Shown: positions 1 through 9,673 of the stretch, piece by piece
How positions within the stretch are numbered: the stretch's first letter is position 1
Layout: each line of letters opens with the position of its first letter
NCBI GenBank assembly: GCA_028698395.1
Contig: JAQVDG010000049.1
Coordinates: forward strand, 1-9,673
DNA length: 9,673 nt
DNA from: Weeksellaceae bacterium
GTDB taxonomy: Bacteria; Bacteroidota; Bacteroidia; Flavobacteriales; Weeksellaceae
Reading direction: 5' to 3'
Notes under the pieces: model-generated
What the model saw: only the letters and a program-made list of their open reading frames with translations
What the model was told of the DNA's origin: nothing
Databases searched by the model: none
Translations under genes and position numbers: made by a program

Positions 1-127
1 TAACACACGCCTATGTCCATTGGCGGGCTGGCGTGCATTCCGGCGGTTTTGCTCCCGCATTCACTTTGTCGTTCCACGACAGCGAACGCTCCCGCAAACC
101 GCCAAATGCCCATAGCCTCGGTCGTTA
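1..127 (+). repeat. attC-like cassette site 1 (class I interior)
   Basis: The window opens on TAACACACGCCTATG, the invariant left block of the repeat. The right block CCCATAGCCTCGGTC runs into GTTA at 124-127. The interior can fold: TGTCGT pairs with ACGACA around a short loop, and GGCGGTTT pairs with AAACCGCC. Unlike the other sites the loop-closing pair is T-A rather than C-G, a compensated change. The bases after GTTA are CCAGC, so this core reads GTTACCAGC. Its 5' flank lies outside the window. It acts as the left boundary of cassette A. Whether it is a functional recombination site is inferred. Confidence 0.8.
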
Positions 128-202
128 CCAGCAAGCCGAAAAAAAAAAGACAAGACCATAATATCTGACAAGTGATTTCTCAAAAACTGAACTGCCAAAA
201 TC

Positions 203-277
203 ATGACAACTATAGAATTTGTTGAAAAGTTTTACCAACAGAAGTACTCTTTTTCGAAAAAAACTCACTACATTTGA
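203..277 (+). CDS. Possible 24-residue peptide or gene remnant upstream of the C gene
   Basis: An ATG at 203 opens a 24-codon frame reading MTTIEFVEKFYQQKY and ending at TGA 275-277, inside the promoter and operator of the next gene. The composition is protein-like, rich in aromatic and charged residues, and resembles the start of a longer protein. It may be a truncated gene start or a chance frame. I see no convincing promoter or ribosome binding site before it. The rest of the stretch from 128 to 268 holds a poly-A tract and nothing else I can identify. Confidence 0.2.
   Translation: MTTIEFVEKFYQQKYSFSKKTHYI
269..276 (+). promoter_or_regulatory. Bacteroidota-type -7 element for the RM module
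   Basis: TACATTTG matches the Bacteroidota primary sigma -7 consensus TAnnTTTG exactly. It lies 39 bases before the ATG of the regulator and would start transcription near 283. No good TTTG is seen at the expected -33 distance, only a T-run at 250-254. A single such element is weak evidence in AT-rich DNA, but this one overlaps a perfect palindrome directly before a C-protein gene, which strengthens the call. Confidence 0.5.
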
Positions 278-290
278 CAAATATTGTCAA
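274..290. promoter_or_regulatory. Palindromic operator (C-box-like) overlapping the promoter
   Basis: TTGACAA at 274-280 and TTGTCAA at 284-290 form a perfect 7+3+7 inverted repeat. It overlaps the end of the -7 element and covers the predicted transcription start. It sits 25 bases before the ATG of an XRE-family regulator in a restriction-modification module. C proteins are known to bind such dyads to time endonuclease expression after entry into a new host. The position over the start site suggests repression by the C protein; this direction is inferred. Confidence 0.6.
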
Positions 291-315
291 ACGGAATTTT
301 TACAGCGAAAAAACA

Positions 316-615
316 ATGACTACAGGTGAATTAATTAGAGAGAAAAGAGAACAAAAAGGATTTTTATTGCGTGACATTTCAACTCAGATTGGTGTTGACA
401 CCGCAATATTAAGCAAAATTGAGAGAGGAGAAAGAAGAGCCACAAAAGAACAGATTTTAAAATTGGCTGACATTCTCGAAATTGAGAGAAGCTTGATATT
501 GACCCAATATCTGAGTGAAAAAATTTTATACGAAATACAAAATGAAGATTTCGGAATTGAAGCATTGAAAGTCGCAGAGCAAACAATTAAATATGGTGGA
601 CCAAACAACAAATAA
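316..615 (+). CDS. XRE-family controller (C) protein of the RM module
   Basis: This is a 99-residue DNA-binding protein of the XRE/Cro type and the probable controller of the restriction-modification genes behind it. The helix-turn-helix fills roughly residues 5-55 (LIREKREQKG, then IGVDTAILSKIERGER, then ILKLADIL), with the recognition helix around TAILSKIERG. A charged tail of about 40 residues follows. The length is normal for C proteins (about 80-100 residues). I chose ATG 316 because the longer frame from TTG 274 would run through the operator. The stop TAA at 613-615 is one base from the ATG of the methyltransferase, so the two are probably translationally coupled. The regulator assignment is firm; the exact target is inferred from the palindrome at 274-290. 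Confidence 0.85.
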   Translation: MTTGELIREKREQKGFLLRDISTQIGVDTAILSKIERGERRATKEQILKLADILEIERSLILTQYLSEKILYEIQNEDFGIEALKVAEQTIKYGGPNNK

Positions 616-616
616 A

Positions 617-2194
617 ATGTCAGAATATTTATCAATAAGTGAAGCAAGTGTATGGGCTTCAGACTATTTAGAAAAGAATGTTACAACCTCTAACATTTCT
701 TACCTTATCCAGTATGGACGTATTACCAAAATAGGGGAAAATGGTTCAACGTTAATTGCCAAAGAAGAATTGATTAATTATTATAAAAGTCAAAAGAAGA
801 CCAAACAAGAATCCTGGAAAGACGAGTTGGGAGAAGACCTTAATTGGACTTTATCTTTTGACCAATATAAAGAATCAGAAACAACAAAACATGTACATAG
901 ACTTCACCCTTACAAAGGAAAGTTTATACCTCAATTGGTTGAGTATTTCCTCGACAATCATACTGACAAGTTTAAAAAAGAAGTCTATTTTAAAGAAGGA
1001 GACATTGTACTCGACCCATTTTCTGGAAGCGGAACAACAATGGTTCAAGCCTGTGAATTAGGAATACATGCAGTTGGTGTGGATGTTTCTGCTTTTAATT
1101 CATTAATTGGCAATTGTAAGGTTACTCACTATGACATAAAGGATGTTCAAACTGAGATAAACAGAATTACAAAATCTCTAAAGTCATTTTTAGAAAACTC
1201 TCACACAGTTGATTTTGAGACAAGGCTTTTACAAGAACTTAACGTATTTAATACTAAATATTTTCCTGTCCCTGACTACAAATACAAGGTTCACAGAAAA
1301 GAAATAAATGAAAAGGAATACGGGAAAGAGAAAGAATTAGAGTTTTTGCCAGTTTTCAATCAATTAGTTGAAGAATACAAAATTAAATTACGTCAGGACA
1401 AAGAAGATACTTTTCTTGATAAATGGTACTCAAATCATATCCGAGAAGAAATCCAATTCGTATTTGATGAGATTAAAAAGATACAAAATCAATACACAAA
1501 AAGAATTGTAAGTGTAATTCTAAGTCGTACAATCAGAAGTTGCAGGGCTACAACTCACGCAGATTTAGCCACGCTTTTAGAACCAGTAACTACAACCTAT
1601 TATTGCGGAAAACATGGAAAGATATGTAAGCCATTGTTTTCTATTCTAAAATGGTGGGAAAGTTATTCAAAAGATACCATTAAGCGATTAGCTGAATATG
1701 ACCGTTTAAGAAAACCTACTTATCATTCTTGTTTGACAGGTGACAGCAGAACAATAGATATTGTTGAAGCTTTGAGAAAGAAGAATCCCGAATTTGCAGA
1801 CTTGATTTCAAGACAAAAAATCAAAGGAATTTTTTCTTCTCCTCCTTATGTAGGATTAATAGATTATCACGAACAACACGCTTATGCTTATGATTTGTTT
1901 GGTTTTGAAAGAAAAGATGAATTAGAAATTGGGCCACTTTTCAAAGGACAAGGAAAAGAAGCAAAACAAAGTTATGTACAAGGAATAAGCGACGTGCTGA
2001 ATAATGCAAAAAAATACTTAGTTGATGACTTTGATATTTTCCTTGTTGCTAACGACAAATACAATATGTACCCAACTATTGCCGAAAATGCCGGAATGCA
2101 GATTGTTAATCAATATAAAAGACCTGTTCTAAACAGAACAGAAAAAGACAAAAGTGCATATTCAGAAATAATTTTTCATTTAAAAAAGAAATAA
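617..2194 (+). CDS. Type II DNA methyltransferase (TdeIII/MjaII-like), N4C/N6A class
   Basis: This is a 525-residue DNA methyltransferase that would protect host DNA from the endonuclease encoded next. Residues 1-60 form a helix-turn-helix-like segment (LSISEASVWASDYL, then TSNISYLIQYGRI) that may bind DNA or regulate the operon. An HPYKGKFIPQL segment (motif X region) precedes motif I, DPFSGSGTT, at residues 133-141, which binds S-adenosylmethionine. The catalytic motif IV, SPPY, is at 408-411. SPPY rather than DPPY suggests N4-cytosine methylation. Motif I before a long central region and then motif IV gives an alpha-like order. Residues 330-337 carry Cys-x2-His-x3-Cys (CGKHGKIC), a possible metal site in the target-recognition region. 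An alternative in-frame ATG at 593 would overlap the C gene by 23 bases. I prefer 617 because it follows the C stop (TAAaATG). Confidence 0.85.
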   Translation: MSEYLSISEASVWASDYLEKNVTTSNISYLIQYGRITKIGENGSTLIAKEELINYYKSQKKTKQESWKDELGEDLNWTLSFDQYKESETTKHVHRLHPYKGKFIPQLVEYFLDNHTDKFKKEVYFKEGDIVLDPFSGSGTTMVQACELGIHAVGVDVSAFNSLIGNCKVTHYDIKDVQTEINRITKSLKSFLENSHTVDFETRLLQELNVFNTKYFPVPDYKYKVHRKEINEKEYGKEKELEFLPVFNQLVEEYKIKLRQDKEDTFLDKWYSNHIREEIQFVFDEIKKIQNQYTKRIVSVILSRTIRSCRATTHADLATLLEPVTTTYYCGKHGKICKPLFSILKWWESYSKDTIKRLAEYDRLRKPTYHSCLTGDSRTIDIVEALRKKNPEFADLISRQKIKGIFSSPPYVGLIDYHEQHAYAYDLFGFERKDELEIGPLFKGQGKEAKQSYVQGISDVLNNAKKYLVDDFDIFLVANDKYNMYPTIAENAGMQIVNQYKRPVLNRTEKDKSAYSEIIFHLKKK

Positions 2195-2229
2195 GACAAA
2201 TAATACTCATTTACAAAATAATCTAACAC

Positions 2230-3285
2230 ATGGCACTTTCATTAAACCAAAAAGAGAGAATATCAATAGAAGTTATAAAAACCCTAGTATCAAGATTTGA
2301 AAGTTTTCCTGAAGATGCTTCAAATAATAGAAATGCTCCATTTCATGATGCATTTTTAAAAGCATTTTCAGATAAATTGGAAGGAAAAGTAACTGACACA
2401 CCATTTTTCATAAGTTTAAGTAGTTGGTTGCAGGGATTAAATACTACATTAGGTCAAACTTTTTTTGAAAATGTCGCTCACATTTTATCTAATGGAGAAA
2501 AAAGAGAATATACTTCAAAAAAGATTGGAAATAAACCAATTACACAAACTCAAAGAAATCACATTTCTCAAATAATTGCCGATTTAAGCAACTCTACGTC
2601 AACACCTAATCTTGTATCAGAAAATGCACTTCTGTTTACTAATTATTCAACGCCAGAAATAAATGCAATGGATTTTTCAGCAGATGTATTTTACGAAGAT
2701 GCAGATAGCGTAACTGCTATAGAGTTGAAATCAGTAAAGCCAAATTCTGGTGAAATGAAAGGAGAGAAACTGAAAATTTTAGAAGGTAAGGCTGCATTAT
2801 ATAAAATGTTCCCGGGAAAAAATATAAATTTCTATATTGGTTTCCCCTTCGACCCAACTGTTAATCCTTCAGTTGAATCAGTAACCAGTTATAATAAAAC
2901 AAGGTTTCTTGGCTCAATTATCAATATGAATAAATTTTTTGCTCCAAATGAGACTCTAGTAGCAAATGAATTATGGGATTTTTTATCCGGTCAAGAAAAC
3001 ACTATGGAAGAAATTCTTGAAATAATAAATATAATTTCTACCACAGCTTTTATTGACAAGTTTAAATTACTGGTTGATGAGAGTCAGAAAGATACCCAGG
3101 AATATCTTGATTTGCTTGTAGAATGGAATTTACATTCTGAAATTGAATTAAATACAAACCGGACAATTATTTTAGAGAACATAGAAGGAAATGCTCCGCT
3201 AACTAGAATTTTCAACAAAAAAAGCTTTGATGTAAAAGGTAGTTTTAATTGGGATAAATATTTTGCATTGAAAAATATTTTTTAA
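2230..3285 (+). CDS. TdeIII/MjaII-family type II restriction endonuclease
   Basis: This 351-residue protein resembles the TdeIII/MjaII endonuclease family, whose characterised members I recall cutting GGNCC; specificity here is inferred only from family resemblance. The N-terminal part (SRFESFPEDASNNRNAPFHDAFLKAF, split by conserved Phe and Asp residues) and the WLQGLNTTLGQTFFENVAHIL region are typical. A PD-(D/E)XK-type nuclease core is visible: Asp152 in SADVFYED, then Glu165-Leu-Lys167 in AIELKS. The gene begins 35 bases after the methyltransferase stop with no promoter between, so it is probably cotranscribed from the operator-controlled promoter. No frameshift is seen. A complete enzyme next to a complete methyltransferase suggests an active system. 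Confidence 0.8.
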   Translation: MALSLNQKERISIEVIKTLVSRFESFPEDASNNRNAPFHDAFLKAFSDKLEGKVTDTPFFISLSSWLQGLNTTLGQTFFENVAHILSNGEKREYTSKKIGNKPITQTQRNHISQIIADLSNSTSTPNLVSENALLFTNYSTPEINAMDFSADVFYEDADSVTAIELKSVKPNSGEMKGEKLKILEGKAALYKMFPGKNINFYIGFPFDPTVNPSVESVTSYNKTRFLGSIINMNKFFAPNETLVANELWDFLSGQENTMEEILEIINIISTTAFIDKFKLLVDESQKDTQEYLDLLVEWNLHSEIELNTNRTIILENIEGNAPLTRIFNKKSFDVKGSFNWDKYFALKNIF

Positions 3286-3319
3286 TATTCAATTATTGCT
3301 AATCGCCCAAAAAGCAAAA

Positions 3320-3371
3320 AAAAGCCACAGCAAGTTGGTGGAAATATTTTAATTGTCTTGCAGTGGCTTTT
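3320..3371. terminator. Terminator-like hairpin after the RM operon
   Basis: AAAAGCCACAGCAAG (3320-3334) pairs with CTTGCAGTGGCTTTT (3357-3371) with one A-A mismatch, leaving a 22-base loop. Outside it AAAAAGC (3310-3316) faces GCTTTTT further right. It lies about 35 bases after the endonuclease stop and has T-rich DNA on its right side and A-rich DNA on its left, so it could stop transcripts from either side. Confidence 0.6.
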
Positions 3372-3399
3372 ATAGCTTTTTGATAATAGGCAGAGCGGT

Positions 3400-3471
3400 C
3401 ACAGTACATTGTTTTTTTAGCTCATTTAGACAGTTGAAGTGCGTTTTGAAAGAAAAAAACAATGCACTGTG
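3400..3471. repeat. 72-bp near-perfect inverted repeat
   Basis: CACAGTACATTGTTTTTTT (3400-3418) and AAAAAAACAATGCACTGTG (3453-3471) are inverted copies with 18 of 19 positions paired. The 34-base loop is unrelated to the arms. It follows the terminator-like hairpin by about 30 bases, in DNA without a gene. It could be a second terminator, the ends of a minute mobile element, or part of a small RNA. The rest of the stretch 3472-3633 shows no gene; frames there run into site 2. Confidence 0.5.
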
Positions 3472-3638
3472 GAGTGTTTATTGTTTTAGTTTTGTGCGTT
3501 AAGACAAGCATATCGGTTATATTCCGGTTGGCTGACAAGAAATGACAAGAAACAAAACAGACTTATTGCGCTGATAAACAGAAAATTAAAACGACTTAAA
3601 ATTAATGACGACATTATGATGACTGAACGGCCAGCTGG

Positions 3639-3764
3639 TAACACACGCCTATGGTCACAGGCTGGCTGACGTGCACTTAGCAGGTTTTGCGCCCGCATTC
3701 ACTTTGTCGCTGTGCGACAGCGAATACGCCCGCAAACCGCCCGTGCCCATAGCCTCGGTCGTTA
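3639..3764 (+). repeat. attC-like cassette site 2 (class I interior)
   Basis: It begins TAACACACGCCTATG and ends CCCATAGCCTCGGTCGTTA. CTATG pairs with CATAG, and just inside, ATGG-CAC faces GTG-CCAT with one unpaired base per side. The core hairpin pairs TGTCGC with GCGACA around TGT and shows the TT bulge on the left arm. The outer flanks do not match each other: GCTGG before TAAC and GCGGG after GTTA. Each instead matches the far end of its own cassette (A and B). It separates cassettes A and B. Confidence 0.85.
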
Positions 3765-3854
3765 GCGGGCATAGTTGAAAAGGAAAAAAGAGACAGATTT
3801 GTATTGAAAAATCTTTGAGGAACTGTCCTTTTTATTTCACATAGACAGACAATT

Positions 3855-3862
3855 TACATTTG
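3855..3862 (+). promoter_or_regulatory. -7 promoter-like element in cassette B
   Basis: TACATTTG fits TAnnTTTG exactly and lies about 95 bases inside the cassette, where cassette promoters would be expected. It would start transcription near 3869, yet no protein gene follows. No clear -33 TTTG is visible. Exact matches to this motif are expected a few times by chance in a window of this composition. Confidence 0.3.
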
Positions 3863-4132
3863 ACAGACTTTCGACTTCAGACAACTTTAGCGGGCGGACA
3901 ATTCCTCGCAGATTTTCGAAGGAAGAAAATAGACTTTTTAGCTTTGGAACTATGACCACTAAAGACCGAATTGGTGAATCCGGATTTGTCAGAGTTTCCG
4001 GGTTAGCCGGCTGAAAGTGGTTTTCGGAGAGAGAAAAGACATATTCTACTTGTTTCGACTGACTTTTCGCTATTGCGGGCTGAAAATGCATTCAGACAGC
4101 GAGAAAAGAAAAAAACAAAAGATAAAAATCTC

Positions 4133-4177
4133 CCCGACAACCCGAAAGAAGAGAAAACCCGTTTCGGGCTTGTCGGG
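4133..4177. repeat. 15-bp stem hairpin in cassette B
   Basis: CCCGACAACCCGAAA (4133-4147) pairs with TTTCGGG-C-TTGTCGGG (4162-4177), with a single bulged C and a 14-base loop. On the minus strand the stem is followed by an ATTTTTATC-like T-rich run, so it could be a terminator for transcripts from the right. On the plus strand no T-run follows, which favours a structural RNA element there. A second, smaller stem (ACACTC/GAGTGT) lies at 4275-4293. Confidence 0.5.
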
Positions 4178-4450
4178 AGAAAGGTTTACAGGAAAGTTTT
4201 TTCGACTTTTGATTTGTTCGTTTTTGACAGAGTTTTCGAGAACGAGACAAGAAATTCACAAAACATGCTCTGAAACACTCATTTTGAGAGTGTGAATCTT
4301 AAAAATTATCCGTTAATTTGTGACAGCTTTGAGAGAAAACTCAGGGTAGGAGAGAGTGAGACCTTTTTCGGACTTGAAAACTTCGGTTTGAGAGAGTTTC
4401 TGCAAAATTCAGGGGCTGAAAACTAAACGGACAGAAAAACTACGACCCGC

Positions 4451-4577
4451 TAACACACGCCTATGCGCTTTGGGCGGCTAATGTGCTTCTGGCAGTCTTT
4501 GCGCCCGCATTTCCTTTGTCGCTATTGCGACAAGAAATTCGCCCGCAGCCCGCCCAAGCCCATAGCCTCGGTCGTTA
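4451..4577 (+). repeat. attC-like cassette site 3 (class II interior)
   Basis: The invariant blocks TAACACACGCCTATG and CCCATAGCCTCGGTCGTTA enclose the second interior type. CTT-GGGCGG on the left arm pairs with CCGCCCAAG on the right, leaving one extra T on the left. TTTC and TTGTCGC pair with GCGACAA and GAAA, leaving a two-base CT bulge on the left. Outside, CCCGCTAAC (4446-4454) pairs with both GTTAGCGGG of site 2 (far end of cassette B) and its own GTTAGCGGG. It separates cassettes B and C. Confidence 0.85.
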
Positions 4578-4621
4578 GCGGGCAGTGAAAAAAAATAAAT
4601 ACCGTTGTTTCAAAAATGAAT

Positions 4622-4629
4622 TATCTTTG
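4622..4629 (+). promoter_or_regulatory. -7 promoter-like element of the cassette C gene
   Basis: TATCTTTG matches TAnnTTTG and lies 18 bases before the preferred ATG at 4648, which implies a leader of about 12 bases. A TTG at 4605-4607 is nearer than the normal -33 spacing. If right, the cassette brings its own promoter and does not depend on read-through. Confidence 0.4.
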
Positions 4630-4647
4630 CATAAAACAATAGATATT

Positions 4648-5679
4648 ATGACGAAAATTAATAGATTCAACAACGAATTTTATTCTAAAATATCAGAAAT
4701 TCTACAGTTTGCTAGAAACAAAGTTATACAGACCGTTAACACAACAATGGTAGAAACTTATTTTGAGATAGGTCGACTAATAATTGAAGAAGAACAAAGC
4801 GGAAGTGAACGGGCTGAATATGGAAAACAAATATTAAAAGAACTTTCCTTGAAATTAACAAGCGAATTTGGTTTGGGTTTCTCGGTGACTAATTTGCAGC
4901 AAATGAAGAATTTCTATAATATTTATGGAAAACAACAGACAGTGTCTGCTAAATCTAACCCGAATGAGTTACCCAGTTTCAAATTAAGTTGGTCACACTA
5001 TCTAAAACTAATGAGAATTGAGGATGAGCTTGAAAGAAAATTCTATGAAATTGAATGTGCGAAAAACAATTGGAGTCTTCGGGAATTACAAAGACAATAT
5101 GATAGTGCATTATATACGAGACTGGCTTTGAGTCGGAATAAAGAAGGTATCAAAAAATTATCGGAACAAGGATTGGTAATTGAAAAACCACAGGATGCGA
5201 TTAAAGACCCTTATGTACTCGAATTTATTGGATTACCCGAGAAATCAGAATATTCTGAAAACGATTTAGAACAAAAACTAATCGACAAGTTAGAGCATTT
5301 TCTGTTAGAATTAGGAACTGGTTTTGCATTTATTGCTCGACAAAAAAGAATTTCATTCGACGAAAAGAATTTCAGAATAGACTTAGTTTTTTACAATCGA
5401 ATTTTGAAATCATTTGTACTTATCGACTTGAAGATTGGTGAATTAAAACACCAGGATATCGGTCAAATGCAAATGTACGTCAACTATTACGATAGAGAAG
5501 TGCGACTTGCAGATGAAAATAAAACAATTGGACTTATTTTATGTCAGGACAAAAGTGAAGCAGTAGTTCAATATACACTTCCTGAAAACAACGAACAGAT
5601 TTTTGCGAGTAAATATCAAACAGTTTTACCAAGTAAAGAAATGCTTATTGAATTGATTGAAAATCAGAACGAAAAATAA
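4648..5679 (+). CDS. DUF1016/YhcG-family PD-(D/E)XK nuclease
   Basis: This 343-residue protein belongs to the DUF1016 (YhcG-like) family, which pairs an N-terminal helical domain with a C-terminal PD-(D/E)XK nuclease fold. The N-terminal part shows the family signatures FEIGRLIIEEEQ, YGKQILKELS and FSVTNLQQMKNFY (about residues 35-90), then LSWSHYLKLMRI and WSLRELQRQYDSALYTRL. The nuclease core carries FRIDLVFYNR with Asp245 and VLIDLK with Asp260 and Lys262, then GQMQMYVNYYD. The active-site residues look intact. Members are often found near restriction systems and in defence islands, and the precise substrate is not settled. I chose ATG 4648 over GTG 4585 because the longer frame starts inside the conserved cassette end and upstream of the promoter element. 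It is the only gene of its cassette. Confidence 0.85.
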   Translation: MTKINRFNNEFYSKISEILQFARNKVIQTVNTTMVETYFEIGRLIIEEEQSGSERAEYGKQILKELSLKLTSEFGLGFSVTNLQQMKNFYNIYGKQQTVSAKSNPNELPSFKLSWSHYLKLMRIEDELERKFYEIECAKNNWSLRELQRQYDSALYTRLALSRNKEGIKKLSEQGLVIEKPQDAIKDPYVLEFIGLPEKSEYSENDLEQKLIDKLEHFLLELGTGFAFIARQKRISFDEKNFRIDLVFYNRILKSFVLIDLKIGELKHQDIGQMQMYVNYYDREVRLADENKTIGLILCQDKSEAVVQYTLPENNEQIFASKYQTVLPSKEMLIELIENQNEK

Positions 5680-5691
5680 TCACCGACCCGC

Positions 5692-5817
5692 TAACACACG
5701 CCTATGTTCACAGGCTGGCTGACGTGCACTTTGCAGGTTTTGCGCCCGCATTCGCCTTGTCGCTGTGCGACAGCGAATGCTCCCGCAAATCGCCCGTGCC
5801 CATAGCCTCGGGCGTTA
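5692..5817 (+). repeat. attC-like cassette site 4 (class I interior)
   Basis: The invariant ends are present, with GGGC in place of GGTC just before GTTA. Its central hairpin is the best paired of the class: CATTCGC and TGTCGC pair with GCGACA and GCGAATG, interrupted only by the CT bulge on the left arm. The outer arms differ by one base (CCCGCTAAC before, GTTAGCGGT after), and each base agrees with the other end of its own cassette. It separates cassettes C and D. Confidence 0.85.
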
Positions 5818-6682
5818 GCGGTAAGTGTAAAAAAAAGAAAAACAGAGTATTATTGATAATTCAGAACAGACAAAATGAGAATTTCAACTCAGAATTAAGA
5901 ATGACCGAATAAAAGAGAATAATTTCAAACTAAACGACTTTTAATTGAACTAAACATGAAAAAAGAATTTAAAAGCACCTTGACAAAACTATTTCCAGCA
6001 GTTATATGCATACTTGTTTTTATTGTATCCGGCTGTAATCAAGATGACTGTGAAATTAAATCTGATAGATGTGTCTTTCTTGAACACCACATAAGTACTA
6101 ATGGAGAAATAATTGAAGGAAATTACATAGAAGGACCAGGAATAGATTCACCAACATTTACTTTTGACTCAAATAGTGGGATTTTATCTGGTGTCATGTT
6201 CTTTGATATTAACAAATCATTAAAAGTTATCTATGGAAATGGCAGAAGCCTTGGTGGAGTAGCGGGTTACGGAGTCAGTACAAGCCTTCTAGGCATATAC
6301 AAATTGCCATATAACTTGGAGAACTTTAAAATTGAGAATGTAGAATCAAACGGAACGATTCATTTCCAATACAAGGACTCGACAATTGTTCTAAAAAGTA
6401 ATGAAGAGTGGCTCGACACAACAACATACGTTGATATTCAAAATAATTCAGGTGAAATTGCTAAAGCACGATTGACAAATATAGACAGATTCGTAAACTA
6501 TGGAATTATTGAGAAATCAAAAATTGAAAAATAGTTTAAGAAATAAACACCTAACCGCTAACACACGCCTATGTGCTTAGGGCGGCTACTGAGCTTTTAG
6601 CAGTCTTTGCGCCCGCATTTCCTTTTTCGCTATTGCGACAGGAAATTCGCCCGCAGACCGCCCAAGCCCATAGCCTCAGTCG
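5815..6682 (+). mobile_element. Cassette D: lipoprotein cassette
   Basis: An 868-base unit. GTTAGCGGT (5814-5822) is the reverse complement of ACCGCTAAC (6554-6562), and AAGTGT beyond it matches ACACCTA before the right arm with one extra base and one change. The unit carries one gene, ending 24 bases before TAAC of site 5. The 138-base leader from 5818 to 5955 has no clear promoter; the best candidate is an imperfect TATTATTG. Its first two dozen bases are nearly the same as those of cassette E. Confidence 0.6.
5956..6534 (+). CDS. Small lipoprotein of unknown function
   Basis: I do not recognise this 192-residue protein. A basic start (MKKEFKSTLTK) is followed by a hydrophobic stretch and a lipobox, IVSGC, with Cys27 as the lipidated residue. 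It would therefore be cut by signal peptidase II and anchored in an outer or inner membrane. The residues after the cysteine, NQDDCE, are acidic, a pattern that favours surface exposure in Bacteroidota lipoproteins; this is an inference. Three cysteines (27, 32, 38 region) lie near the new N-terminus. The remainder is beta-rich in appearance, with many Gly, Asn and Thr residues (GNYIEGPGIDSPTFTF, GRSLGGVAGYG). It is the only gene in its cassette. Confidence 0.7.
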   Translation: MKKEFKSTLTKLFPAVICILVFIVSGCNQDDCEIKSDRCVFLEHHISTNGEIIEGNYIEGPGIDSPTFTFDSNSGILSGVMFFDINKSLKVIYGNGRSLGGVAGYGVSTSLLGIYKLPYNLENFKIENVESNGTIHFQYKDSTIVLKSNEEWLDTTTYVDIQNNSGEIAKARLTNIDRFVNYGIIEKSKIEK

Positions 6683-6685
6683 TTA
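6559..6685 (+). repeat. attC-like cassette site 5 (class II interior)
   Basis: It has the invariant left block and a right block with AGTC in place of GGTC. CTT-GGGCGG pairs with CCGCCCAAG, here with an extra A on the left where site 3 has a T. The central hairpin pairs TTTCC with GGAAA and TCGC with GCGA, with one T-C mismatch and the TT bulge. Its outer arms are ACCGCTAAC and GTTAGCGGT. It separates cassettes D and E. Confidence 0.85.
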
Positions 6686-7856
6686 GCGGTAAGTGTAAAA
6701 AAAAAGGAAAACCAACTGATTTTGAAATAGAAACACATGAAAATAAAACTCAAGAAAGTTTATAAACCGACAATTATAATTCTCTCTGTACTATCGTTGA
6801 TTTCCATTCTATGGGCGAATTCTACAATAAACAAACAGACAGAAAATAAAATTTATACCGAAACGGTTTCGATTCCAGAAAACAATGTTGGACTGCTTTT
6901 AGGGACTTCAAAAATTTTGAAGAACGGAAAGCCAAATCAGTATTTTGAAAACAGAATTTCAGCGACTGTTCAACTATACAAAGCAGGAAAAATCAAAAAT
7001 ATAGTCATAAGTGGAGACAACAGTAGAAAGAGTTACAACGAACCGGAAGACATGAGAAATGAATTGATTAAGCGTGGAATTCCGGAAACTCAAATCTATT
7101 TAGATTATGCTGGATTTAGAACTTATGATTCAGTGTATCGTATGAAAGAAATATTTGGACAAAACAAATTTACAATTATTTCACAGGAATTTCATAATCA
7201 GAGAGCAGTATATATAGCGAATGCGTTGAAACTAGATGCAATTGGGTTTAATGCGAAAGACGTGAATGCATACAATGGTTTTAAGACCAAATTCAGAGAA
7301 AAACTTGCTCGTGTAAAAGTGTTTATTGACTTGATTTTCGATAAGAAACCAAAGTTTTTAGGCGAAAAAATTATAATTAATGCGGGTGATTTATATGAAT
7401 GGGAAGACTTAAACCTTCAATCTTTAACAGACTCTTCTGTTGTTGAAAAAGTAGGCAAACCATTAAAAGAGAAAACCATTTCTATTCAAAAAATAAAAGA
7501 TTTACACCCTTTATATCGTCCTTTAGTTAGATTTATTCCAAAAGGACTTGACAGTGTTACTATAAAAGAGTATTCCTGGGAAAAACCACCATATTTAATG
7601 TATGTTTGGTTTATAAAGGAAAAGAAAGTTTGGATTGCAATTGATGGAATAAAATACGATCCAAATTCAGTAGAATTTTGAGTTTTCCATCATGAGATGA
7701 GATATTGAAAAAAAAACAAAACACCTAACCGCTAACACACGCCTATGTGCTTTGGGCGGCTAATGTGCTTCTGGCAGTCTTTGCGCCCGCATTTCCTTTG
7801 TCGCCATTGCGACAGGAAATTCGCCCGCAGACCGCCCAAGCCCATAGCCTCAGTCG
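6683..7856 (+). mobile_element. Cassette E: SanA-like protein cassette
   Basis: A 1174-base unit with one gene. GTTAGCGGT (6682-6690) is the reverse complement of ACCGCTAAC (7728-7736), and the neighbouring AAGTGT and ACACCTA also match, as in cassette D. The first bases are almost the same as those of cassette D (GTTAGCGGTAAGTG then a long A-run), and both end ACACCTAACCGCTAAC. The two cassettes thus share terminal sequence but carry unrelated genes. Confidence 0.6.
6737..7681 (+). CDS. SanA/YdcF-like (DUF218) membrane protein with extra C-terminal domain
   Basis: Residues 1-225 closely follow the SanA type of the DUF218/YdcF family, envelope proteins linked to vancomycin tolerance and barrier integrity in enterobacteria. 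A membrane segment (about residues 11-27, TIIILSVLSLISILWA) anchors it, and the main domain would face the periplasm. The signatures are LLLGTSK, YFENRI, LYKAGKIKNIVISGDNS, YNEPEDM, DYAGFRTYDSVYRMKEIFG, SQEFHNQRAVYIA and KPKFLGEKI. SanA normally ends near that last motif, at about 240 residues. Here about 90 further residues follow (EWEDLNLQSLTDSSVVEKVGKP onward, rich in Trp and Tyr towards the end), which I do not recognise. The start ATG 6737 lies about 55 bases inside the cassette; TGATTTTG at 6717-6724 is a one-mismatch -7 element. The biochemical activity of the family is not established. Confidence 0.85.
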   Translation: MKIKLKKVYKPTIIILSVLSLISILWANSTINKQTENKIYTETVSIPENNVGLLLGTSKILKNGKPNQYFENRISATVQLYKAGKIKNIVISGDNSRKSYNEPEDMRNELIKRGIPETQIYLDYAGFRTYDSVYRMKEIFGQNKFTIISQEFHNQRAVYIANALKLDAIGFNAKDVNAYNGFKTKFREKLARVKVFIDLIFDKKPKFLGEKIIINAGDLYEWEDLNLQSLTDSSVVEKVGKPLKEKTISIQKIKDLHPLYRPLVRFIPKGLDSVTIKEYSWEKPPYLMYVWFIKEKKVWIAIDGIKYDPNSVEF

Positions 7857-7859
7857 TTA
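7733..7859 (+). repeat. attC-like cassette site 6 (class II interior), interrupted at its core
   Basis: It has the invariant left block, the class II interior and a right block ending CAGTCGTTA. The central hairpin is well paired: TTTCC and TGTCGC with GCGACA and GGAAA, with the TT bulge on the left. The outer left arm ACCGCTAAC matches the start of cassette E. The bases after GTTA (TGGGC) are unlike any other site. I attribute this to insertion of the IS110 element at this point, because GTCGTTA recurs at 9491-9497. Confidence 0.8.
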
Positions 7860-7930
7860 TGGGCAATTCCAAAAATAAAAAATTGATTGACTTAGTCTGC
7901 TAACGAGCAACAAGTTAGAAATGTCTTTCG

Positions 7931-7938
7931 TACATTTG
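7931..7938 (+). promoter_or_regulatory. -7 promoter-like element in the IS left end
   Basis: TACATTTG matches TAnnTTTG exactly. Transcription from it would begin near 7945, cross the structured left end and enter the transposase gene at 8110. No -33 TTTG is seen at proper spacing. Confidence 0.35.
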
Positions 7939-7944
7939 CATGAC

Positions 7945-8100
7945 TCTTTGAAAGGCCGATTTAAGAAGTGTTGCCTAAAAAGCACGAGCGCAATTCTGGT
8001 TGAGATGTTTGCATTGACTTAAGTGGTGGTTCCTTGACAGGAAACCCCGTTCAGAATATTCTTTTAAAGCATTAAGCACATCTCCAAAGAGTTTTTAATT
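7945..8100 (+). ncRNA. Candidate IS110 bridge RNA region
   Basis: IS110-family recombinases use a bridge RNA transcribed from the non-coding end of the element, which pairs with both target and donor DNA. The 5' non-coding end is where the RNA lies in the IS110 subgroup. Visible structure: AGAA and TTGC (7964-7974) pair with GCAA and TTCT (7990-7997) with a GTG bulge, and GGTTCC (8028-8033) pairs with GGAAACC (8040-8046). CTAACGA at 7900-7906, just before the region as drawn, is the reverse complement of TCGTTAG in the rebuilt target. The limits are approximate and the guide assignment is speculative. Confidence 0.4.
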
Positions 8101-8109
8101 CTACAAGTT

Positions 8110-9468
8110 ATGACTGAGAAAGACAAAATTTCAATGGATATTGTCAATCCCCGAGCAGCAGGAATTGACATTGGAAGTCGCTCACATTGGGTGGCTGTTG
8201 GACAAGGTCCAAATGATTTTAAAGAATTTGGTGTGTATAATGAAGATTTATACAGCATTGCACAGTGGCTCAGAGAAAATGAGATTAAAACCGTTGCCAT
8301 GGAAAGCACCGGCACGTATTGGCAATCGCTTTATGCGGTACTTATTGCCGAAGGATTTCAGGTGATCCTGTGTAATGGAAAATTTACCAAGAATATCAAA
8401 GGAAAAAAAACCGATATTCAGGATTGTCAGTGGATTCAAAAACTACACAGTATTGGGTTACTTTCGGGAAGCTTTTTACCGGATCAAGCCACTGAACAAT
8501 TGCGAACATTGTGCAGACACAGAGCGAATTTACTTGATTCGGCAGCGGCAGCTTCCAAGAAAATGCAAAAATATCTCAGACTGTTGAATCTCAGATTGGA
8601 TGTAGTAGTAAATGATATTTGCGGACTGACCGGCATGGCCATTATTAAAGCCATTTGCAATGGGGAAAAGAACCCTGAGCGACTAGCTGAACTTCGTCAT
8701 CATAACTGCAAAAAATCAAAAGAAGAAATAGCCAAAGCATTACACTCGAATGGACGGCAGGATTATATTTTTGCTCTGAAACAAGAGTTGGAAATGTACG
8801 AAATGTTTCAAACCAAGATTGCGCAATGTGACATTGAAATTGAGAAAATGCTCAATGATACCATTGACAATGACGATAATAAGAAGCAGCATTATATTGA
8901 GAAAAAAACATATAAAAAAGTCAACAAAAATACGCCCAAGAATATTGATTTAAATCTGATGGCTTATCAACATTTTGAAGGAGTGGATTTAATGGCTATT
9001 GAGGGAATGAGCTATTCTACTATTCTTTCGCTAATCAGTGAAGTAGGTGTAGACGGAATAAAACGCTTTTCAACTGCAAAGCATTTTGCTTCATGGCTTC
9101 GATTGGCTCCGAACAACAAAATCAGTGGAGGAAAAGTACTTTCGAGCAAAATTCCAAAAGGGAGTAACCGTTTGAAAATTGCGCTCAGAAATGCGGCAAA
9201 TGCGATTGGGAATTTGAAAGATTCAACACCTTTGAGAGATTTCTTTCAAAGAATCAATTTCCGAAAAGGAAGAGTATCAGCCATAAGTGCTACGGCACGA
9301 AAACTGGCGGTGATAATCTGGAACATGGTAGTAAAAGGAGTTCCTTATCACAACCCGGAAGAATACCTTTTCAGGGATCAGAAAAAGAAGCTTGGATTAC
9401 TTAGGAAAATCCAAAAACAAATTACAAAATTTGAACTTGAAAGCACTGACTTTCAATTTTCTAATTGA
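8110..9468 (+). CDS. IS110-family transposase (bridge-RNA-guided recombinase)
   Basis: This 452-residue enzyme has the two parts of IS110 transposases. The N-terminal RuvC-like DEDD domain shows Asp20 in AGIDIGSRSHWVA, Glu65 in VAMESTGTYW, and Asp102 and Asp105 in KKTDIQDCQW. A central coiled region around residues 150-270 is rich in Lys, Glu and Asp. The C-terminal Transposase_20 domain reads MAIEGMSYSTILSLISEVG, then FASWLRLAPNNKISGGK, with Ser339 as the candidate catalytic serine, then NRLKIALRNAANAIG. The phrase NTPKNIDLNLMAYQHFEGVDL is typical of Bacteroidota members. All expected catalytic residues are present and no frameshift is seen, so it may be active. ATG 8110 follows the structured left end directly. 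Confidence 0.92.
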   Translation: MTEKDKISMDIVNPRAAGIDIGSRSHWVAVGQGPNDFKEFGVYNEDLYSIAQWLRENEIKTVAMESTGTYWQSLYAVLIAEGFQVILCNGKFTKNIKGKKTDIQDCQWIQKLHSIGLLSGSFLPDQATEQLRTLCRHRANLLDSAAAASKKMQKYLRLLNLRLDVVVNDICGLTGMAIIKAICNGEKNPERLAELRHHNCKKSKEEIAKALHSNGRQDYIFALKQELEMYEMFQTKIAQCDIEIEKMLNDTIDNDDNKKQHYIEKKTYKKVNKNTPKNIDLNLMAYQHFEGVDLMAIEGMSYSTILSLISEVGVDGIKRFSTAKHFASWLRLAPNNKISGGKVLSSKIPKGSNRLKIALRNAANAIGNLKDSTPLRDFFQRINFRKGRVSAISATARKLAVIIWNMVVKGVPYHNPEEYLFRDQKKKLGLLRKIQKQITKFELESTDFQFSN

Positions 9469-9482
9469 TTAGTTATCAATTG

Positions 9483-9490
9483 TATATTTG
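9483..9490 (+). promoter_or_regulatory. Outward -7 element at the IS right end
   Basis: TATATTTG matches TAnnTTTG and lies 15 bases after the transposase stop, next to the right border of the element. It faces outward and would start transcription near 9497, upstream of the ATG at 9516. In a circular copy of the element the same element would face the left end. Confidence 0.45.
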
Positions 9491-9515
9491 GTCGTTAGTC
9501 AGAACTTTAAAAAAA

Positions 9516-9673
9516 ATGAAGACAGTTATATCGACAATTATAATACTCTTTTTGACAGCTTATGTTTACGCAAACTGTGAGAGTAATGGACTTTCAGTTT
9601 TTCCAACCGGAAAGACTTTGAGACAGAACTCTATTATTGTAATTGAAGGGTACGGAGACAGCCAGACTATTAT
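9516..9673 (+). CDS. Exported small protein, partial (start of cassette F)
   Basis: An open frame starts at ATG 9516 and runs off the window after 52 codons. Its start, MKTVISTIIILFLTAYVYA, is a signal peptide: a Lys, a hydrophobic core, and a plausible signal peptidase I cut after VYA. The mature part begins NCESNGLSVFPTGKTLRQNS, then IIVIEGYGDSQTI. I do not recognise the family. If the IS is removed the gene lies about 22 bases after a GTTAGTCAGAAC cassette start, so it is probably the gene of the next cassette. It may now be driven by the -7 element at the IS end. Confidence 0.65.
   Translation, partial: MKTVISTIIILFLTAYVYANCESNGLSVFPTGKTLRQNSIIVIEGYGDSQTI

Follow-up and report, generated by a model that had tools for sequence, protein, structure and literature searches.

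A probable integron-type cassette array in a Weeksellaceae bacterium and a family of Bacteroidota integrases outside IntI

The subject of this study is a 9,673-nucleotide stretch of DNA from a Weeksellaceae bacterium (assembly GCA_028698395.1, contig JAQVDG010000049.1; the whole stretch is hereafter the window), which very probably holds an integron-type cassette array whose cassettes would form circles that a tyrosine recombinase other than IntI puts back in at G^TTA. The system appears to work like an integron, and the integrase linked to such arrays in related genomes lies outside the IntI family. Six sites, each of about 125 bases, lie in the window and share the conserved ends AACACACGCCTATG...CATAGCCTC(A/G)G(T/G)CGTT, and an initial reading made by a model from the letters alone (the sequence-only reading) had claimed that the nine bases opening each cassette are the reverse complement of those closing it. 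All five complete cassettes bear this out exactly when read from the sequence, with the pairs GTTACCAGC/GCTGGTAAC (once), GTTAGCGGG/CCCGCTAAC (twice), and GTTAGCGGT/ACCGCTAAC (twice); our scripted counts give 4/5 because the first site has no left flank. Sites 2 and 4, which that reading considered discriminating, do mismatch between their own two arms. The sites and arms are as follows, with scores in bits from a covariance model of the attC-like site:

2..126, + strand: attC-like site 1 (AAC to GTT), 125.7 bits
3640..3763, + strand: attC-like site 2, 128.3 bits, own arms disagreeing
4452..4576, + strand: attC-like site 3, 117.3 bits
5693..5816, + strand: attC-like site 4, 118.6 bits, own arms disagreeing
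6560..6684, + strand: attC-like site 5, 116.9 bits
7734..7858, + strand: attC-like site 6, 116.9 bits
124..132, + strand: start arm of cassette A, GTTACCAGC
3634..3642, + strand: end arm of cassette A, GCTGGTAAC
3761..3769, + strand: start arm of cassette B, GTTAGCGGG
4446..4454, + strand: end arm of cassette B, CCCGCTAAC
4574..4582, + strand: start arm of cassette C, GTTAGCGGG
5687..5695, + strand: end arm of cassette C, CCCGCTAAC
5814..5822, + strand: start arm of cassette D, GTTAGCGGT
6554..6562, + strand: end arm of cassette D, ACCGCTAAC
6682..6690, + strand: start arm of cassette E, GTTAGCGGT
7728..7736, + strand: end arm of cassette E, ACCGCTAAC

Complementary cassette ends, site folding, and the crossover point

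The comparison of arm agreement within sites and across cassettes, which the sequence-only reading had proposed, was extended to fetched loci with two sets of sites. A two-part site pattern matched 92 stretches of genome contigs, 80 of them listed, and those listed came mostly from Paludibacter metagenome-assembled genomes (MAGs) and also from Myroides isolates; the pattern was present on four Empedobacter plasmids, a looser version matched 23 stretches of viral contigs, and no similar site was found in phages at E 0.01. The pattern's 227 sites yielded 105 distinct consecutive pairs, of which 98 were usable (7 were lost to short flanks), and all nine bases agreed across the cassette in 79/98 vs within the site in 6/98; among pairs whose first site disagreed with itself, 73/92 still matched across the cassette. 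The covariance model, run on 47 sources, matched 118 times; this left 78 pairs for use after 7 were dropped, a few loci overlapping in that count, and agreement at nine of nine bases was 62/78 across the cassette vs 2/78 within the site. After merging, 88 of 119 distinct pairs matched fully across the cassette, whereas shuffles gave a mean of 3.7 and a maximum of 11. Enterococcus locus L066 was rejected as site-bearing, since it is probably a chance pattern match: in the genome concerned, the covariance model detects 0 sites.

The sites and their complementary ends can be read directly from the DNA, and the notion that cassettes would travel as circular intermediates is well supported by them; excision and circle formation are steps that we infer. 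A cassette carries its own attC at its 3′ end together with, mostly, one co-oriented gene, and would leave the array as a circle in which the joined ends rebuild a fully paired attC-like hairpin, its stem comprising 9 bp, a loop of 2 × 2–3 bases, and then 4 bp or more. As long as the cassette sits in the array, its site has a right arm that is part of the following cassette, and the hairpin is therefore imperfect.

The sequence-only reading had noted partial pairing past the nine bases and had predicted a recognition stem of more than seven, and both points held. A second complementary box of four bases lies past a loop in 83 of the 88 pairs that match at nine of nine in the merged set (30 in register and 55 with one extra base, 2 being counted in both; shuffles, mean 4.8 and maximum 13), the loop behind the nine bases being mostly CA or AA opposite TCG, TAG, TG, or AG. 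Extending the arms without gaps at k = 7, for comparison with canonical IntI arrays, proved too noisy in AT-rich DNA to provide stem lengths, and the stem-length claim therefore rests on the second-box analysis. The sites form imperfect hairpins of 120–145 bases with the anatomy of attC, that is, an R box, an unpaired spacer, and an L box; compensatory change was found in 7/11 predicted pairs of the site, with a weak consensus energy of − 0.68, and the central unpaired spacer is strongly conserved in the subtype of site found in the window. Bottom strands had a lower fold energy than top strands in 76/78 sites, and a bottom strand paired with the arm of its own circle reached − 36.8 kcal/mol vs − 30.7 with its array neighbour (Wilcoxon p 2e-13, n = 78) and − 30.9 with a random arm (n = 78). 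The folded bottom strand would be the likely substrate.

Eleven pairs of junctions that share one flank only were used to place the crossover, which had been predicted at G^TTA. Compared from the left, the sequences stay identical past the base preceding G and, at the tightest, for 2 more bases (4 without the unmatched arm of L084); compared from the right, they stay identical as far as G, with 0 further bases at the tightest. The crossover therefore falls inside the GT of GTTA, or inside GTTA if the L084 arm is omitted, in keeping with the prediction. Cassettes shared between differing contexts are few: of 7 shared pairs, 6 came from contigs that overlap or are identical and so have the same context, and only L079/L107 sits in two contexts.

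Linked integrases and their relation to IntI

A search with TIGR02249 in 32 site-bearing genomes uncovered open frames of 542–601 amino acids, which match the IntI profile at either end and skip its positions ~180–239. In 5/10 such loci (L130, L131, L132, L134, and L137) the contig carries sites downstream of the integrase and oriented as it is, and a sixth locus, L139, has downstream sites by the covariance model; in L133, L135, and L138 the contigs stop within 363 bp of the integrase. The six linked loci are in MAGs titled Paludibacter (two), Bacteroidales (two), Bacteroidetes, and Bacteroidia. An attI-like sequence, GTTANNNNN, stands 129–246 bp past the integrase stop codon and before the first cassette, and its arm equals the end arm of the first cassette at nine of nine bases in 6/6 loci having a first site, with further attI-to-first-cassette matches in L141 and L189. 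In one MAG, L138 and L139 have the same first cassette behind different attI sequences, with identity starting at GTTA. The attI-like arm and the linked integrase are directly visible in related genomes, and new cassettes would enter at attI beside the integrase, where a tyrosine recombinase outside IntI is the likely agent of reinsertion at G^TTA; we infer that the integrase of the window genome is of this family. An inverted repeat to the left of attI reached significance against shuffles at 6/13 loci only, and is therefore not claimed to be general.

Sites with a different spacer, in L189, L141, and Myroides L144, obey the same arm-matching rule. This second site subtype, with a AACAATGTATA-like spacer, accompanies short or divergent integrases (L189, L188, L141, and L144). 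Most integrases are co-oriented with the array, the divergent ones being in L144, L190, L304, and L309.

Pfam finds a phage integrase and a SAM-like domain in the integrase, and the best match among solved chains is 2a3v, "site-specific recombinase IntI4." The sole NCBIfam model above its cut-off was NF040815 (XerA), "site-specific tyrosine recombinase/integron integrase," in 3/6 (L130, 232.5 bits; L139, 224.1; L140, 236.3; cut-off 220), with the other new integrases lower, and six new integrases scored 195.9–222 bits with TIGR02249, under its 265-bit cut-off. The spacing between boxes was 64 residues in 235/235 measured new integrases (5/240 were not measurable) vs 106–116 residues in IntI (8 of 13 measurable), and the new integrases lack the additional domain around patch III by which PMC9668308 defines IntI. 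Positions R, K, H, R, H, and Y, which we take to have catalytic roles, are invariant across 59 aligned new integrases, and a C-terminal SPLD-like motif is common to these and IntI. The trees join the new integrases to IntI and set both apart from Xer and the XerA-like rows of Bacillota (SH-aLRT support 100), and the 13 IntI sequences form a separate clade (support 100) with the new integrases beside and outside it; that the new integrases form a single clade was neither rejected (p 0.60) nor proved. These trees are quick ones with several long branches, archaeal XerA lies outside their sampling, and the row L247 represents that plasmid's other recombinase rather than its integron-like integrase.

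Long-form integrases are extended at the N terminus by ~290 residues, among which are three HARP-like WxxxxxxWxxP repeats whose W-W-P positions are invariant. The Pfam HARP model PF07443 (cut-off 25) gave 28.0 bits for P0228, 10.2–24.2 for six others, and no match for the remaining scanned proteins. HARP domains read branched or single-stranded DNA. Short forms (~280–400 amino acids) have one such repeat or none, as judged by eye, and the repeats are therefore not required in all family members. Among the matches listed, some family integrases are interrupted by in-frame stops within the matched region, with several cases in G198 and G165, and decayed copies therefore occur.

Distribution of the family and alternative explanations

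A 59-integrase profile matched 83/149 genomes of Bacteroidia, the class of G004 (E 1e-60), 67/198 genomes of G004's phylum (E 1e-80), and 0/200 genomes in the phylum of G029 (titled Sulfuricella), while canonical IntI was found in 1/149 Bacteroidia genomes. Among 60 relatives of G004, site matches were present in 20/20 genomes with the integrase (E 1e-60) vs 26/40 without it (Fisher p 0.002). We further sampled 40 loci, one per genome, among the matches listed, on contigs picked for apparent room, and applied a motif-free finder that chains matching arms only and starts ≤ 600 bp from the integrase; 30 of the 40 had at least 2.5 kb downstream. Co-oriented chains of at least 2 were found for 13/30 integrases (shuffles, 2.2%) and of at least 3 for 10/30 (shuffles, 0/600), and therefore about a third of the sampled integrases are integron-like by this test. 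Motif-free chains reached 13 steps in L161 (11 of them with GTTA arms), 8 in L160, and 6 in L144, with at most 3 in shuffles of these loci.

Several observations weigh against a cassette array served by this family. We saw no integrase gene in the window, and in L136 no site was detected in the 8 kb downstream of the integrase. Of the sampled integrases, 17/30 lacked a co-oriented chain of at least 2, two of these having divergent chains of 3 and 4, and the chains at plasmid loci L245, L246, and L247 (1, 1, and 0) were no better than shuffles. The 26/40 relatives of G004 that carry site matches and no integrase are as gaps in MAGs, trans-acting integrases, or other integrases would give; many of the genomes are MAGs, some probably misbinned. 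In the merged set, 31/119 pairs miss full agreement (10 of these retain the second box), and arms that do not start with GTTA match in 0/6. The motif-free finder detects matched GTTG arms, for example in Myroides, and some misses are therefore sites skipped by the motif search. The sequence-only reading had also stated that agreement vanishing for cassettes with unusual ends would speak against it, and this came about in part: nine-base sequences seen once match in 13/27, as against 64/76 for those seen at least 3 times.

The cassette logic, the G^TTA boundary, and the attI and attC anatomy would also fit an ordinary integron that merely happens to be in Bacteroidota and whose integrase is a canonical IntI, and several results lean toward this explanation: 2a3v (IntI4) is the best solved relative and the SPLD-like motif is shared, the non-Bacteroidota genomes G028 and G029 of the site scan hold IntI above cut-off, and IntI loci also chain, with at least three 8-base arms in 7/17 (a low-complexity locus being excluded, and this count having no shuffle control). 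We nonetheless regard this as very unlikely, given that the TIGR02249 scores stay below cut-off with profile positions ~180–239 skipped by the long forms, the box spacing differs (64 vs 106–116), IntI is a separate clade with support of 100, and IntI was found in only 1/149 Bacteroidia. The chance is slimmer still that the sites are dispersed intergenic hairpin repeats, terminator-like or akin to repetitive extragenic palindromes, which spread by homologous recombination with no movement of cassettes. The sites are indeed mutually similar, intergenic, and stably folding, and some site-bearing genomes have no integrase match, yet such repeats ought to pair with themselves, whereas agreement was 6/98 and 2/78 within sites vs 79/98 and 62/78 across cassettes, the attI match was 6/6, and the crossover point is fixed.

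It is just as improbable, in our judgment, that Xer-type recombination at dif-like sites (pdif modules) moves the arrays beside an integrase that is a mere neighbour. This explanation draws on the nearest NCBIfam model being XerA, with three integrases above the cut-off of 220. The sites, however, are hairpins of 120–145 bases, unlike dif (no dif motif search was made); dif sites are 28 bases long. In the tree, a split with support of 100 also separates the integrases from Xer and the XerA-like rows of Bacillota, the arm match between the attI beside the integrase and the first cassette holds in 6/6, and integrase and sites are associated (20/20 vs 26/40).

Cassette contents, known systems, and significance

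Among 62 cassettes with matching ends, the longest open reading frame (ORF) was co-oriented with the array in 50 and opposite in 4, and 8 had none of at least 80 amino acids. The cassettes of the window and their genes are as follows, with G^TT boundaries placed according to the junction pairs of the fetched loci:

125..3761, + strand: cassette A
316-615: helix-turn-helix regulator of cassette A
593-2194: DNA methyltransferase of cassette A
2230-3285: TdeIII-type restriction enzyme of cassette A
3762..4574, + strand: cassette B, no ORF > 92 amino acids (shorter ORFs left unsearched)
4575..5814, + strand: cassette C, with a YhcG-type PDDEXK nuclease at 4648-5679 (PADLOC PDC-S02)
5815..6682, + strand: cassette D, with a 192-amino-acid protein at 5956-6534 whose start is lipoprotein-like by eye
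6683..7856, + strand: cassette E, with a DUF218 protein at 6737-7681
7857..9673, + strand: start of cassette F, with GTTATGGGC at 7856-7864 and its end beyond the window
8110-9468: IS110-family transposase, 3′ of site 6, inside cassette F or after it

The 192-amino-acid protein of cassette D had no match in Pfam or PADLOC. The window cassettes were absent from the other fetched loci at 85% identity over 80% (four Empedobacter loci excluded). A terminator-like inverted repeat of 19 bases (95% complementary) lies at 3400-3471, between the restriction gene and site 2, and an Rfam scan of the window gave 3 matches, all far under gathering scores, with no convincing family. The IS110-family element may be an attC-seeking insertion sequence like IS1111-attC; IS110 genes are also found behind the integrase on Chryseobacterium (L245) and Rufibacter (L246) plasmids and on a Pontibacter plasmid (H65, near the integrase of H8). 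The Chryseobacterium plasmid also has a group II intron reverse transcriptase downstream of the integrase, at 14534-15850 of L245.

On the Empedobacter plasmids, the chains have ends that coincide with gene borders, those of catB, tet(X2), lnu(H), and a gene for an aminoglycoside phosphotransferase. These chains are weak by number (L013, 4, with a maximum of 3 in 10 shuffles; L012, 3, with a shuffle maximum of 4) and are credited because their ends fall at gene borders. Empedobacter-named proteins, one of them from E. stercoris on a 3.5-Mb contig, are 79–82% identical to the integrase of Myroides sp. 1354. In that strain (L144/L175), a six-step chain runs divergently from a 279-amino-acid integrase and includes nucleotidyltransferase, erythromycin-esterase-like, and ABC-F-like genes, a likeness judged by eye.

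The Acinetobacter tet(X3) plasmids (L243 and L244) encode a truncated TpnF that falls within the long-integrase group in the tree, and between it and tet(X3) are an attI-like palindrome, recognized by eye, and then the start GTTATGTGCCATTTTTGAATGA, which equals the start of Empedobacter tet(X2) over 18 bases plus the start codon. Acinetobacter TpnF looks like a relic of a long Bacteroidota integrase that precedes tet(X3). The passages of PMC7722449 and PMC8635130 that treat tpnF describe it as a recombinase gene in ISCR2 structures and do not mention an integron integrase. The tet(X3) unit differs from the cassettes described here in that it moves with ISCR2, its TpnF is missing the N-terminal portion, and no matching arm is present at the 3′ end of tet(X3).

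The system resembles IntI integrons, both class 1–3 and chromosomal, in its cassette array with attI by the integrase, attC-like hairpins, G^TT boundaries, cassette starts that match their own inverse core, better folding of the bottom strand, and integrases that form a single group against Xer. It departs from them in an integrase outside the IntI clade that lacks the IntI insert, has ~290 extra N-terminal residues with HARP-like repeats in its long form, and is mostly co-oriented with the array, and in sites whose outer arm consists of 9 bp, a loop, and a second box, with a conserved unpaired spacer in the window-type subtype. A further likeness is to Riemerella anatipestifer, in which, according to passages of PMC13148043, aph(3′)-IVb enters the chromosome without homology together with 27 bp of 5′ and 140 bp of 3′ flank, the 140 bp folding like attC, and the authors propose a structure-based site-specific mechanism; there too a gene with a short 5′ and an attC-like 3′ flank moves as a unit, and those passages do not identify an integrase. 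Riemerella was not among the few organism names for the 120 best matches to the Myroides 1354 integrase, and no search was aimed at Riemerella.

We consider it probable, with moderate confidence, that Bacteroidota hold a second great integron lineage, sister of IntI, whose integrase family would be present in roughly half of the species of Bacteroidia, often carrying, in place of the IntI insert, HARP-like repeats that may read DNA structure, and which would have an attI of its own and several subtypes of attC. This lineage may have served as a platform that packaged tet(X), lnu(H), and other resistance genes of Flavobacteriia before some of them reached Acinetobacter. Integrons are usually searched by IntI, and the lineage would have been overlooked because its integrases lack the domain used in such searches. 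Bacteroidota are among the phyla with integrons in the parts of PMC8618304 and PMC9668308 that list them, and our literature searches, whose coverage left bioRxiv and most subscription papers outside, showed, among the records listed, no title or abstract on this Bacteroidota system. The presence of the integrase family in 83/149 Bacteroidia genomes stands against a single complete case within Bacteroidetes proper, Salinibacter ruber M1, in the section of the IntegronFinder 2.0 report concerned (PMC9024848). Cassettes with matching arms hold restriction-modification and nuclease genes in the window and resistance genes on the Empedobacter plasmids. The family could explain the cassette-like insertion in Riemerella and could give TpnF a meaning, and, as a natural sister group without the extra domain of IntI, it could make testable how IntI gained that domain.

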